From Verrucomicrobiota bacterium (GTDB taxonomy: Bacteria > Verrucomicrobiota > Verrucomicrobiia > Opitutales > Puniceicoccaceae): a stretch of 64,000 nucleotides of DNA. The translations under genes and the position numbers were made by a program. Positions 2,548 through 8,939 of the stretch are shown here, piece after piece. The number at the start of each line of letters is the position of its first letter. Position 1 is the first letter of the stretch. The stretch covers positions 1-64,000 of the forward strand of contig JBCDMB010000009.1 in assembly GCA_038744685.1 (NCBI GenBank), written 5' to 3'. The notes under the pieces are model-generated. The model was not told the origin of the DNA. It saw only the letters and a list, made by a program, of their open reading frames with translations, and did not search any database.

Positions 2548-3210
2548 TTGCTTCTGTCAGGCGAGGGTGAGACTTTTCGAACGGTGCCAGAACAACGCGG
2601 AGATGCTGTGGGGTCTATCAGCTCGACATTGGTGGACAATTTCGATTCTGACTCTCGCCTCATTGAGAGAGTGAAAGCAGGTAATATCGCTGCGTTTGAT
2701 TTGCTTGTTCATAAATACAAGAAACGAATCTTCGCGATCATTTACAATATGACCTCAAATCGCGAGGATGCGGCCGATCTCACTCAAGAGTGTTTTATCA
2801 AGGCATTTCGGTCTCTGAATCGTTTTAAGGGAAGGTCCCAGTTTTTCACCTGGCTGTATCGGATCGCGGTGAACGCTACTCTGAGCCACCTGAAACGTAA
2901 CCGATATAGAAGATTCTTCAGTTTTGAGTCGCTCAACGAGGATGGGATTAGTCCTGATCTTGCCGCAGCACTTTCCTCAAAAATTCAGACAGAAAGACCA
3001 CTTTTGCTGAAAGAGCTACAGGAAAAATTGAACGAAGCTCTTCAATCTTTGTCTCCCAAACATAGAACAGTTGTAGTTTTGTTTGAGATTGAAGGTTTGA
3101 GTCATGAAGAAATATCCGAGATTGTGCAGACATCTGTGGGAACGGTCCGGTCACGTTTGCACTATGCGAAGCAGCAGCTCCAATCTTCCCTCAACACCTA
3201 CCTCGGATAG
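2548..3210 (+). CDS. ECF-type RNA polymerase sigma factor (RpoE-like)
   Basis: A 220-aa sigma-70 family factor with region 2 (AGNIAAFDLLVHKYKKRIF, then DLTQECFIKAFRSL and FTWLYRIAVNATLSHLKR) and region 4 (LSPKHRTVVVLFEIEGLSHE, TSVGTVRSRLHYAKQQL). It should direct RNA polymerase to an extracytoplasmic stress regulon. The frame opens with TTG at 2548, and GTG at 2584 is an equally possible start; neither has a strong ribosome site, and the first 30 residues are not part of the sigma fold. The next gene follows after 9 bp and the third after 14 bp, so the three probably form one transcript. Confidence 0.9.
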   Translation: MLLSGEGETFRTVPEQRGDAVGSISSTLVDNFDSDSRLIERVKAGNIAAFDLLVHKYKKRIFAIIYNMTSNREDAADLTQECFIKAFRSLNRFKGRSQFFTWLYRIAVNATLSHLKRNRYRRFFSFESLNEDGISPDLAAALSSKIQTERPLLLKELQEKLNEALQSLSPKHRTVVVLFEIEGLSHEEISEIVQTSVGTVRSRLHYAKQQLQSSLNTYLG

Positions 3211-3219
3211 TGGGAGATA

Positions 3220-3744
3220 ATGTTGGTTCCTAAAGAAGAAAAAGAAAAAGTTTCATTGGAGCATCTCCTCCGTCTAAAGAAAAAGGAGATGCCTCCGGAG
3301 CTATTTTGGAATCGATTTGACCGCGAGTTGGAGCGGAAAATCGTTCAATCGGTTGTTCGGCGCGAGTCGGTCGTTAGCCGCTACATTCACAGACATTGGA
3401 AGATTTCTGGTGTTTTTGCCTGCGCCGTCGTTGCCATGACCATTGCCTTTCAAGGCCACTATTTAGCCCACATTGAAGCACAAACCCCTGTTCTCTCGGA
3501 TGAGAGTTCTTCAATTGATTCCGAAGAACTTGCCAGCAGATGGGAAGGTGGGACTGCCTCTTCGTTTCGAGACTCTGAGCAGAGTTTTGTGATTGAAATT
3601 CTCTCTAGCGGAGCGGGCGTTTCCAGCGGGGCTGGTAGGACGTGGATTGGTTCTTCGTCAGATCAGGATACCGGAGCCTACTACGTAGCGGACCAACTAT
3701 CTTCCAGCGACTTGGGTTGGTCAGGAGAGCGTCTGCCGTTTTAG
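3220..3744 (+). CDS. One-TM membrane protein in anti-sigma position
   Basis: 174 aa, ATG at 3220 with GGGAG just before it. The N-terminal third is charged and helical (LEHLLRLKKKEMPPELFWNRF), followed by one membrane segment around residues 66-84 (KISGVFACAVVAMTIAF) and an acidic, Ser-rich tail of about 90 residues that should lie outside the inner membrane. This cytoplasmic helix / TM / periplasmic tail layout, and the position right after an ECF sigma gene, suggest an anti-sigma factor. I see no zinc (HxxxCxxC) or RseA signature, so the role is inferred from context only. Confidence 0.6.
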   Translation: MLVPKEEKEKVSLEHLLRLKKKEMPPELFWNRFDRELERKIVQSVVRRESVVSRYIHRHWKISGVFACAVVAMTIAFQGHYLAHIEAQTPVLSDESSSIDSEELASRWEGGTASSFRDSEQSFVIEILSSGAGVSSGAGRTWIGSSSDQDTGAYYVADQLSSSDLGWSGERLPF

Positions 3745-3758
3745 TCAGTCAGGCCCTC

Positions 3759-4742
3759 ATGTGGCGTGCTCTTTTTCTTACTGCTCTGGCTGTTTGTTTA
3801 TTTCAGTCGTTGAACGCATCCGATGCTCTTGGTCTAGAGCGGAGGATGGTGGCAGTTTTCCAAGAGAACCACGAAAGAGTGGTGCGGATCAAAGCGGCCT
3901 ACGAAGATAAGGAAAACGGAAGTCAAGTTTCCCTCCGTGTTGGGACTGGTTTTTTCGTGAGTTCTGAAGGTCTGATACTTGCCAATACCAGCGTCACTGA
4001 AGGAGCGAGAAGGATTTGGATTGAGCGTGGCGATGCGAGTTTGATAGCTGAGGTCATTGGATCAGATGCGGAGACAAATATTGCCCTCCTTAAAGTGGTT
4101 GATCCTCCTGAGAGCGGTTTCTCTTTCATTCCGGTCGACAAACAACCTTACCCAGAGGTGGGAACTTTGCTTCTCTCGATTGGCTGTGCCCTCGAATTTG
4201 ACCCCGCTCCGCGAATGGGGCTTGTTAGCGGACGGGATTCGAATTTTGGGCAGCGTGTGTTCCCTACATCCTACATCCGCACTACCATTCCGGCAAACCC
4301 CGGGGAAGGAGGTTCACCTGTGCTTGACCTAAACGGTCGATTATTGGGGATGATCGTCGCGTCGCTTCCGGAGGTTGGGGCATCCTATGTGATCCCTGCC
4401 AGCGCAATTGGAAAGGTGCGAGATGATCTGCTTTTGAGCGGCTCAGTGCAGTACGGTTGGATTGGGATGGAAGTAGAGAGTCGATCTTTGTCTGCTGATT
4501 CCGATTCACCCCTGGTGATCACCAGCGTTGTGGAAAGTGGTCCAGCTAGCGTCTCGGGCTTGGAGATTGAGGACCGGATAGTATCGATCAATGGGGAGGG
4601 AGTATCGGATATAAATACAATGAGACACCTCTTTTTCTCTTCACGTATTGGTCAATTCCTCGATTTCCGGGTGAAACGGGATGGAGAGATTCTCGATTTG
4701 GAAGTGCAAGTCTCCGAGAGGCCTTCGGTAACGGATGTTTAG
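3759..4742 (+). CDS. HtrA/DegS-like PDZ protein without catalytic triad (pseudoprotease)
   Basis: 327 aa from ATG at 3759, with a signal peptide (MWRALFLTALAVCLFQ), a trypsin-like domain (about 35-245) and a C-terminal PDZ domain (about 255-325). A longer frame starting at 3642 would overlap the previous gene and lose the signal peptide. The fold is recognisable from GTGFFVSSEGLILAN, GSDAETNIALLKV and NPGEGGSPVLD. In HtrA enzymes these contain His, Asp and Ser; here the aligned residues are S78, N107 and G184, so all three are replaced. S186 sits two places too late to serve. Expect a binding or sensor role rather than proteolysis. It is the third gene of the sigma-factor transcript. Confidence 0.85.
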   Translation: MWRALFLTALAVCLFQSLNASDALGLERRMVAVFQENHERVVRIKAAYEDKENGSQVSLRVGTGFFVSSEGLILANTSVTEGARRIWIERGDASLIAEVIGSDAETNIALLKVVDPPESGFSFIPVDKQPYPEVGTLLLSIGCALEFDPAPRMGLVSGRDSNFGQRVFPTSYIRTTIPANPGEGGSPVLDLNGRLLGMIVASLPEVGASYVIPASAIGKVRDDLLLSGSVQYGWIGMEVESRSLSADSDSPLVITSVVESGPASVSGLEIEDRIVSINGEGVSDINTMRHLFFSSRIGQFLDFRVKRDGEILDLEVQVSERPSVTDV

Positions 4743-4764: not shown

Positions 4765-6399
4765 TTACTTTGACTGCCAAGGATCGATCAAGGTAAAGGA
4801 ATTGACGTCGAAATGCCCTCTATCACCGATTTTAAGGGATGGAATGACAAGCAAGGACATAAAAGACAGCGTCATATATGGGGAGCCCAGTCGGCAACCG
4901 TCTTCCTTTGCTAGTGACGTCAGATGAGTGAATTCTCGTGCCGCCTCCGGAGCCTCTTTTTCAGAGATCAAGCCTGCGACTGGCAATGGAAGACAAGCGA
5001 GCGTCTCTCTTGATGCGAATGAGAGCCCACCTTTGCAGGTGATGATCGCGTTTATTGCTTTGACTAAAACATGGTCGTCAGCTCCGACAGCAACGATGTT
5101 GTGTGAATCGTGAGCTACGCTTCCAGCAATCGCTCCAGTCTTTAGACCGAAATTTCGAATCAAACCGACTGCGGGAGGGGTATTTCCGTAGCGATTGACA
5201 ACAACAATTTTTAAAAGGTCTCTACTTGGATCAGACACCACAAGGCCCTCCTTTGCGGTTGGGATTACAGAATCCGATCCGGTAATTAACTGCCCGTCTT
5301 CTGCTACGATGGTCGCAAACGACTTCCCGGGAACCAAAGGCATTCGAATCGAATCTAAGGAGAGCGGACTTACTTCGAAACGGTTCACGGGTGGGAGCTG
5401 AGAAGGCGAAAGGAGCGACAGGCCATCCTCCGCAACCAATTCACCTTTGATCCATGTCCTTTTCGGACGAAAATCCTCTAATTCTTCTACTTCGATAAAA
5501 TCAGCAGAGTCGCCAGGTCGAAGCAGTCCTACTCCAAGTCCGTAGTGTCTGGCTGGATTTAAGCTGGCGACTTGAATCGCTGTAATCGGGTCTATTCCGT
5601 TCCTGACCGCTCGACGAACCAATCCGTCAACATGGGAGACGATGAGATCGTCCGGGTGCTTATCATCGCTGCAGAAAAAACAGGAATCAGGTTCGTCCTT
5701 TATAATGGGCCAGAGGGCATCGAAGTTTCTAGCGGCTGAACCCTCGCGAATGGCTACTTTCATCCCAACCGAAATTCGGTCCTTTGCTTCTTCAAGGGTG
5801 ACACATTCGTGATCCGTTTCTATTCCCGCAGATGCGTATGCCAGCAAATCTTTCCCCGTAACACCAGGTGCATGACCATCGATCGGAAGACATCTCTTCG
5901 ATGCTTCCTTAATGATTGCCATTAAATCAGGATCCTGAGCGATCACCGCAGGAAAATTCATGACTTCGGCCAAGTAAGAAACCTCAGGCTTGTCCAAAAG
6001 ACTACCGATTTCTTTGGCACCAAAGTGAGCACCAGCGGTTTCGAAAGGTGTAGCAGGAACGCAGGAAGGAGCTCCGAATGAGATTTGGACAGGTGTCTCG
6101 GCAGCTGACCTGATCATCCAGTCAACTCCTTCTATGCCACAGACGTTGGCTATTTCATGAGGATCGCTGACGGTTGCGACGGTCCCATGAACTACCGCAG
6201 CGGAGGCAAATGCAGACGGTGACAAGAGAGAGCTTTCTATATGAACGTGGGCGTCGACCAATCCAGGGGAGTAAATCGGACCGCCGTCAATGGTGGGGTC
6301 TTCAACTACAGAATCGATTTTTGCCTCTCGGATCGTAATTGTTCCTCCGAAAATCCGTTGATTTTCGACATCGACAATTCGTCCAGAGAAAGAGTCCAC
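4765..6399 (-). CDS. ade: Adenine deaminase
   Basis: 544 aa of the amidohydrolase superfamily; converts adenine to hypoxanthine and ammonia in purine salvage. The metal site is visible: SPGLVDAHVHIESS near the N-terminus, DGHAPGVTGKDL, DHECVTLEEA and CSDDKHPDDLI. A second conserved block near the C-terminus (SVAHDSHNIVAVGADD, TCKGGLSF) separates AdeC-type adenine deaminase from other amidohydrolases. The start at 6399 is 9 bp behind the stop of ispH, so both are likely cotranscribed. It converges on the HtrA-like gene with a 22-bp gap. Confidence 0.93.
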   Translation of the reverse strand: MDSFSGRIVDVENQRIFGGTITIREAKIDSVVEDPTIDGGPIYSPGLVDAHVHIESSLLSPSAFASAAVVHGTVATVSDPHEIANVCGIEGVDWMIRSAAETPVQISFGAPSCVPATPFETAGAHFGAKEIGSLLDKPEVSYLAEVMNFPAVIAQDPDLMAIIKEASKRCLPIDGHAPGVTGKDLLAYASAGIETDHECVTLEEAKDRISVGMKVAIREGSAARNFDALWPIIKDEPDSCFFCSDDKHPDDLIVSHVDGLVRRAVRNGIDPITAIQVASLNPARHYGLGVGLLRPGDSADFIEVEELEDFRPKRTWIKGELVAEDGLSLLSPSQLPPVNRFEVSPLSLDSIRMPLVPGKSFATIVAEDGQLITGSDSVIPTAKEGLVVSDPSRDLLKIVVVNRYGNTPPAVGLIRNFGLKTGAIAGSVAHDSHNIVAVGADDHVLVKAINAIITCKGGLSFASRETLACLPLPVAGLISEKEAPEAAREFTHLTSLAKEDGCRLGSPYMTLSFMSLLVIPSLKIGDRGHFDVNSFTLIDPWQSK

Positions 6400-6408
6400 C
6401 AGCCAGGC

Positions 6409-7299
6409 TTATGCTGTAGCTACGGTGCTCTCGATTTTCCGCAATCGATCGCAGACAGAATCAATGATAAAGTCGGGAGTGGAAGCACCTGCCGTGACCC
6501 CGACCACCTGAAACTGCCTCATTTCGTCTTCATTGATTTGAGCTGCGGTTTCTATGTGAAAAGTTGGACGCTCGTGTTCCTTCGCCAATTTTGCCAGCTT
6601 TCGAGTGTTCGCGGAGTGATGGCCGCCTATGACTACAATTGCCTCAGCTCCTTCCTGCACCAGTTTCCGGAGGTCGGTCTGCCTCTCTTTGGTAGCCCCG
6701 CAAATGGTATCGTAAATCTCAGCATCTGGATACTTCTTCCGCAAAATCGAAGCCAGACGTTCAAACTCATGGACGAACATCGTCGATTGGGAAACCATTG
6801 CCACACCGCCATCGAGTTCCGGGAGAGCCTGAATGTCATCATCATTCTGAACCACGTGTGCACGCCCTCCTGCGTAGCCGACCAGCCCTACTACCTCTGG
6901 ATGTTTGGGATCTCCAAAGACGATAGTGTGCTTTCCTTTTCGGGCACCCGCTTTGATTCTCCCTGCGATAATTCCTACGTCTGGGCAAGTGGCGTCCTTA
7001 AATTCCATTCCGAGATTCTTCAAATACTTGCGGCGTTCGGGAGATATCCCGTGAGCGCGAACCACAAGAACCGACTCATCTTTCTCCTTTTGAGAGAGGA
7101 CCAAATCCTTTTCGCTCGTATAGTCACCGACCTCGTGGACACCCGACTTCTCGAGTCGTTCCATCATTTGGCTGTTGTGGATGAGGGGTCCATCTGTAAG
7201 CACCTTATTGCACCCCTGCGAGGCATAGCCCTCCGCAATCTTGATTGCGCGCTCGACTCCCCAGCAGAAGCCCGCACTCTTGGCCCGAATGACTTTCAT
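6409..7299 (-). CDS. ispH: 4-hydroxy-3-methylbut-2-enyl diphosphate reductase
   Basis: IspH (LytB) is the last enzyme of the MEP pathway and makes IPP and DMAPP from HMBPP with a [4Fe-4S] cluster. The three cluster cysteines are present in GFCWGVERAI, KDATCPDVGII and YDTICGATKERQ, together with the substrate loop HHSANTRKLAKLA and the C-terminal GVTAGASTPDFIID. Length (296 aa) is normal. GTG (7302) and ATG (7299) follow each other; ATG was chosen. It is followed by ade and diverges from the EEP gene. Confidence 0.95.
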   Translation of the reverse strand: MKVIRAKSAGFCWGVERAIKIAEGYASQGCNKVLTDGPLIHNSQMMERLEKSGVHEVGDYTSEKDLVLSQKEKDESVLVVRAHGISPERRKYLKNLGMEFKDATCPDVGIIAGRIKAGARKGKHTIVFGDPKHPEVVGLVGYAGGRAHVVQNDDDIQALPELDGGVAMVSQSTMFVHEFERLASILRKKYPDAEIYDTICGATKERQTDLRKLVQEGAEAIVVIGGHHSANTRKLAKLAKEHERPTFHIETAAQINEDEMRQFQVVGVTAGASTPDFIIDSVCDRLRKIESTVATA

Positions 7300-7359
7300 C
7301 ACCTACTACTAAAAACTATGCTCGGAACCGGTCAACTGTGGACGCAGACGTTTACCTTT

Positions 7360-8939
<1,580 letters not shown>

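Follow-up and report, generated by a model that had tools for sequence, protein, structure and literature searches.

An ECF sigma factor cassette with an HtrA-like pseudoprotease in Verrucomicrobiia suggests control of a switch by holding rather than cutting

The closest described counterparts of the locus reported here are the σE-RseA-RseB/DegS/RseP system of E. coli and the AlgU-MucA-MucB/AlgW/MucD system of Pseudomonas. In proteobacterial sigma operons the gene that follows the anti-sigma gene (rseB or mucB) encodes a negative regulator with a shielding role. The PDZ domains of AlgW (WVF) and DegS (YQF) bind C-termini that are aromatic at positions 0 and −2, with hydrophobic pockets, and MucB and RseB suppress site-1 cleavage of the anti-sigma factor through complex formation (PMC8545111). 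Two further systems offer partial likenesses. MamO is required for MamE-dependent proteolysis without a triad of its own (PMC4794232), and the FoxA signalling domain protects the FoxR anti-sigma factor from proteolysis (PMC11637429).

We analyzed a 64,000-nucleotide stretch of DNA from a Verrucomicrobiota bacterium, hereafter the window, in which three genes follow one another on the + strand: an ECF sigma factor gene (2548..3210, 220 aa, TTG start), a gene for an anti-sigma-like membrane protein (3220..3744, 174 aa) and a gene for a secreted HtrA-like pseudoprotease with one PDZ domain (3759..4742, 327 aa). The gaps between them are 9 and 14 bases, in agreement with an earlier note on this DNA that had described three tightly spaced genes for an ECF sigma factor, a one-helix membrane protein in anti-sigma position and an HtrA-like protein. 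The gene downstream of the third is convergent, and no further cassette gene follows on the + strand. Like the E. coli and Pseudomonas systems, this one combines an RpoE-like ECF sigma factor, a protein of HtrA-PDZ fold and an RseP encoded in the genome, and its putative one-helix anti-sigma factor has an N-terminal part that is predicted to be cytoplasmic, as in RseA and MucA. Unlike in those systems, the co-encoded HtrA lacks a triad, the cassette contains no RseB/MucB gene, and the anti-sigma-like protein carries an N-terminal motif of its own together with a candidate C-terminal PDZ ligand that is absent from the proteins in the RseA/MucA position at betaproteobacterial loci, which do not end in F/Y.

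Pfam places both sigma70 regions 2 and 4 in the first gene product (Sigma70_r2, 2e-17; Sigma70_r4_2, 3.2e-15), as is characteristic of ECF sigma factors. Against the top NCBIfam model, RpoE (TIGR02939), it reaches 157 of the 236 bits that the cut-off requires, and judged by its sequence the protein is RpoE-like while not assignable to the TIGR02939 equivalog. TTG is a plausible start codon because the N-terminus is like that of relatives (ETFRTVPEQRGDA versus KTFVATPERQHEA). In most genomes the sigma gene adjoins a gene of the anti-sigma-like family. A search for a shared ECF promoter upstream of sigma found GGAAC-type boxes not to be enriched and gave only weak TTGAAC and GAAC-N16-TGTC signals.

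The second gene product has the features of a membrane anti-sigma factor, namely a gene beside that of the sigma factor, one transmembrane helix (residues ~63-80) and an N-terminus predicted by the positive-inside rule to be cytoplasmic. No Pfam family and no known anti-sigma domain model of Pfam or NCBIfam scored above cut-off. Its N-terminal motif reads LExLLxLKxxExPxxxFWxxF, with K20, P25 and W30 invariant in 117/117 proteins of the order; from position, topology and this motif we infer that the cytoplasmic N-terminus would hold the ECF sigma factor. Helices are predicted at 13-22, 27-46 and 51-85, followed by disorder, and the periplasmic tail is poorly conserved save for its extreme end. 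F-V-x-x-L and Y-V-x-D stretches within the tail (window 3574-3594 and 3682-3690; residues ~119-125 and ~155-157) are kept in many relatives and are possibly a second docking site. In a phylum sample the family was detected in the same class only, at the sensitivity used.

The third gene product consists of a signal sequence, a trypsin-like domain (Trypsin_2, 1.4e-17) and one PDZ domain (PDZ_2, 1.6e-12), which is the architecture of HtrA proteins (MEROPS S1C). Its AlphaFold2 model (pLDDT 92.4, pTM 0.87) gives a complete HtrA protease and PDZ fold and not one of RseB/MucB type, and comparison of the modeled structure returned DegP, DegQ and DegS at Z 27-33, with DegP at Z 33. The PDZ domain is encoded at 4455..4712 on the + strand (residues ~233-318; PDZ_2 235-318, 48 bits). 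Its G236 is kept in 112/114 proteins, and its W-I-G-M loop corresponds in the alignment to W-L-G-V in MucD/DegP-like PDZ domains. We assigned the triad positions by alignment with solved DegP-like/MucD sequences, with the genome's own intact HtrA (HDS) and with the AlphaFold2 model. They fall on S78 for the catalytic His (codon 3990..3992), N107 for the Asp (4077..4079) and G184 for the Ser (4308..4310), all on the + strand. The earlier note had named these same residues and had argued that the protein is no serine protease by the usual mechanism while fold and PDZ domain are kept; the alignments and the predicted HtrA fold bear this out. Among the 113 order homologues the first position is never His, the second is Asn in 96 and Asp in one, and the third is Gly in 53 and Ser in 24. 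The gene 3 product lacks the His-Asp-Ser of an active HtrA/DegS, and the NCBIfam DegS model scores 91 bits against a cut-off of 423.

The only two histidines of the window protein, H38 and H290, lie outside its protease core. Since its protease domain contains no His, a substitute triad is impossible there, and this answers the earlier note's proviso that other His/Asp/Ser residues might lie in catalytic geometry. The segment E183-G184-G185-S186-P187 places a Ser two residues after G184 that is without a His or Asp partner. We also weighed His72, common in relatives as part of EGH, as a possible replacement catalytic residue and dismissed it, since its place is six residues ahead of the catalytic position and the window protein has Leu there. 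The protein resembles MamO of magnetotactic bacteria in having an HtrA fold without proteolysis of its own, MamO working beside an active HtrA. MamO differs in that it keeps the triad His and Asp, uses a di-histidine motif for metal and acts in magnetite formation, whereas the window protein has no His in that domain and stands in a sigma factor cassette.

To see how widely the arrangement is kept, as the earlier note had proposed, we surveyed an order sample of 177 genomes (Opitutales/Puniceicoccales, e.g. Cerasicoccus) and other members of the class. Most pseudoprotease homologues, of which there are 113 more in the order and about 85 in the rest of the class, lie in the same cassette. The full cassette was detected at 99/113 other order loci, which argues that the arrangement is not due to chance; outside the order there are 83 complete class loci, and the cassette recurs, again without an intact triad, in 16 additional families among those sampled in the class. 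Gene order and triad loss alike therefore extend beyond the order across the class, and an intact triad, which in the same position would have spoken against the earlier note, occurs in 0 of about 200 order and class homologues. In a 67-row unrooted tree one branch (support 100/99) sets all the degenerate forms apart, a topology that fits one old loss of the triad. One family (f26) has an in-frame TAG inside the pseudoprotease match in three related small genomes (L142, L143, L145).

The anti-sigma-like protein of the window ends in ...RLPF, and the codons for the terminal L-P-F (3733..3741, + strand) encode a proposed PDZ ligand that belongs to a conserved pattern of Φ-x-[F/Y] ends. F or Y closes the sequence in 109/117 proteins of the order, the F+Y background of these proteins being 7.3%, and neither the sigma nor the HtrA proteins have such a pattern at their C-termini in the same comparison. 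Residue −2 is mostly L, F, I, Y or V. A free C-terminal aromatic residue at 0 with an aromatic or hydrophobic residue at −2 is what DegS/AlgW-type PDZ ligands present, and the mostly hydrophobic −2 residue and terminal F/Y match the 0 and −2 pockets of AlgW and DegS. The terminal codons of the anti-sigma-like genes are TTC in 111, TTT in 68, TAC in 25 and TAT in 15; since Phe and Tyr are each written with both of their codons, the constraint acts on the protein. An ATGA gene overlap that would force a terminal Phe or Tyr was rejected as an explanation for the same reason, and also because TTY/TAY is not produced by such an overlap and the gap in the window is 14 bases.

Outside the order the aromatic end co-occurs with the neighboring gene. 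An F/Y end is found in 83/83 anti-sigma-like proteins with a PDZ pseudoprotease encoded directly downstream versus 3/12 without (Fisher p = 1.9e-10), and by family in 16/16 versus 1/9 (p = 8e-6), values that overstate independence and carry a smaller true weight because the families are related. In two f30 proteins examined, Pfam no longer finds the trypsin domain while the PDZ domain scores above cut-off, and the anti-sigma partners still end in F. The resemblance of the anti-sigma C-terminus to a DegS/AlgW PDZ ligand, the most telling feature of the locus and one absent from the earlier note, names a likely contact with the pseudoprotease; on the simplest reading, the anti-sigma tail would be held by the PDZ domain of that protein.

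We propose that the three genes form a class-wide envelope-signaling cassette. The N-terminal cytoplasmic part of the membrane protein would hold the ECF sigma factor, and the disordered periplasmic tail would dock by its Φ-x-F/Y carboxylate end in the PDZ groove of the co-encoded HtrA-fold protein. With its triad lost, this protein would bind instead of cutting and would most likely keep a separate site-1 protease away from the tail. Outer-membrane proteins likewise carry Phe at their C-termini, and when misfolded they would compete for the groove and free the tail, which would then be cleaved by an active HtrA and subsequently by RseP, releasing sigma. The parts for such a competition-and-cleavage scheme are present, as the genome itself encodes RseP, one intact HtrA (HDS) and a BamA ending in ...FGTRF. 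That the triad-less protein binds the tail and shields it from the site-1 protease is a reading in which we place moderate confidence. The fuller version is more tentative: an HtrA pseudoprotease of ancient origin would have turned into an anti-sigma shield whose PDZ domain grips an OMP-like C-terminus evolved by the anti-sigma factor itself, with misfolded OMPs activating the response by competition and not by switching on a protease. The earlier note's proposal that sensing or shielding, and not cutting, is the work of the PDZ protein gains support from the triad loss and the conserved cassette; the shielding itself we infer. The role proposed here is comparable to that of RseB/MucB, with the difference that the fold is that of HtrA. 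It also resembles FoxA-FoxR, in which a periplasmic partner binds the C-terminal part of the anti-sigma factor and protects it as long as the signal is absent. FoxA differs in being the signaling domain of an outer-membrane receptor and not an HtrA-PDZ protein, and the abstract of that study mentions no C-terminal aromatic ligand (PMC11637429).

The C-terminal aromatic residue and its co-occurrence with the pseudoprotease would be expected equally if the bound pseudoprotease acted as an adaptor or activator, which in response to misfolded proteins recruits the active HtrA to the tail or opens the tail to it, so that loss of the pseudoprotease silences sigma. That a pseudo-HtrA can promote the work of a different protease has a precedent in MamO (PMC4794232). 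The presence of an HDS HtrA and RseP in the genome suits this explanation as well. It is opposed by the negative, shielding character of the proteobacterial gene after the anti-sigma gene (rseB/mucB), and we favor shielding over recruitment, since a holder of the site-1 substrate that is unable to cut protects it by default. We regard the adaptor explanation as unlikely, though it deserves serious consideration.

Some lineages keep the aromatic end without the neighbor. In family f14 of the order a longer anti-sigma-like protein retains Φ-x-F ends (IKF, LKF) with no adjacent pseudoprotease, and ten f14 genomes without the neighbor gave no orthologue-level pseudoprotease match elsewhere in the genome, which would imply some other reader of the tail in that lineage. 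The f14 members G413 (L312, L313) and G381 (L314) retain a short anti-sigma-like protein with its pseudoprotease neighbor, and G413 carries two paralogues, a short one with the pseudoprotease and a long one (LKF end) without. In family f17 the pseudoprotease is unlinked from sigma and anti-sigma (L103, L105, L109, L114, L117, L121, L126). The f17 pseudoproteases read FTT and YTA at the triad positions, and the f17 anti-sigma-like proteins still end in F or Y. Together with the three class loci that lack a PDZ neighbor and still end in F/Y, families f14 and f17 may call for another reader of the tail. Retention of Phe in f14 would be accommodated if the two proteins had separate jobs, the terminal Phe serving the PDZ domain of the active HtrA as a degron or activating peptide and the pseudoprotease being a periplasmic chaperone from the same operon that makes no contact with the anti-sigma factor. 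Pseudomonas MucD is likewise an HtrA encoded in a sigma operon, one with no known role as an anti-sigma shield. Against separate jobs, the aromatic end tracks with the neighbor outside the order although canonical-type HtrAs occur in neighbor-less genomes too, and we judge this explanation to be somewhat less probable again.

If the protein could still cut the anti-sigma factor by some unusual protease mechanism, this would account for the retained HtrA fold and PDZ domain and for the Ser kept in some order homologues. That Ser is never combined with His and Asp, the order has lost His in all members and Asp in all but one, and the residues replacing the triad vary between lineages; with the His-free protease domain of the window protein this makes such a mechanism very improbable. 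Pairwise dN/dS of gene 3 is mostly about 0.07-0.25, indicating purifying selection that maintains the gene, and 23 columns are invariant among 41 proteins. A decaying gene or chance arrangement, to which the degenerate triad and the trypsin domain undetected by Pfam in the two f30 proteins might point, is hardly credible in view of this selection, the invariant columns and the class-wide synteny, which are the opposite of the dN/dS near 1 and scattered frameshifts that decay would leave.

ECF sigma factors, anti-sigma factors and HtrA pseudoproteases are known parts; the literature searched contained no description of them combined, across a class, with a ligand-like C-terminus on the anti-sigma factor. 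A search for HtrA pseudoproteases in sigma regulation gave no match, and a prior listing of this ECF group by genomic context in the large ECF reclassification is possible. Across Verrucomicrobiia the data suggest control of a switch by holding rather than cutting. If true, this would show a protease-based stress switch turning into a binding-based one with its sensor domain and chemical cue (the OMP C-terminal aromatic residue) retained, and would identify the probable envelope-stress system in many Verrucomicrobiia, undescribed in the literature searched. Lineages with, without and with an unlinked pseudoprotease offer an evolutionary test bed.

Upstream of the sigma gene in the window lies a polyprenyl synthetase gene (1402-2418). 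A polyprenyl synthetase gene also precedes sigma in f14 (L150, 559-1623) and in L310 (1027-2100), from a class family without the pseudoprotease. This adjacency is an old neighborhood that may tie the switch to the supply of isoprenoids or envelope lipids. Further downstream in the window, the + strand open reading frame at 6241-8901 overlaps minus-strand genes at 6409-7302 and 4765-6399, and the true gene in its frame probably starts much further in than the list of open reading frames gives.
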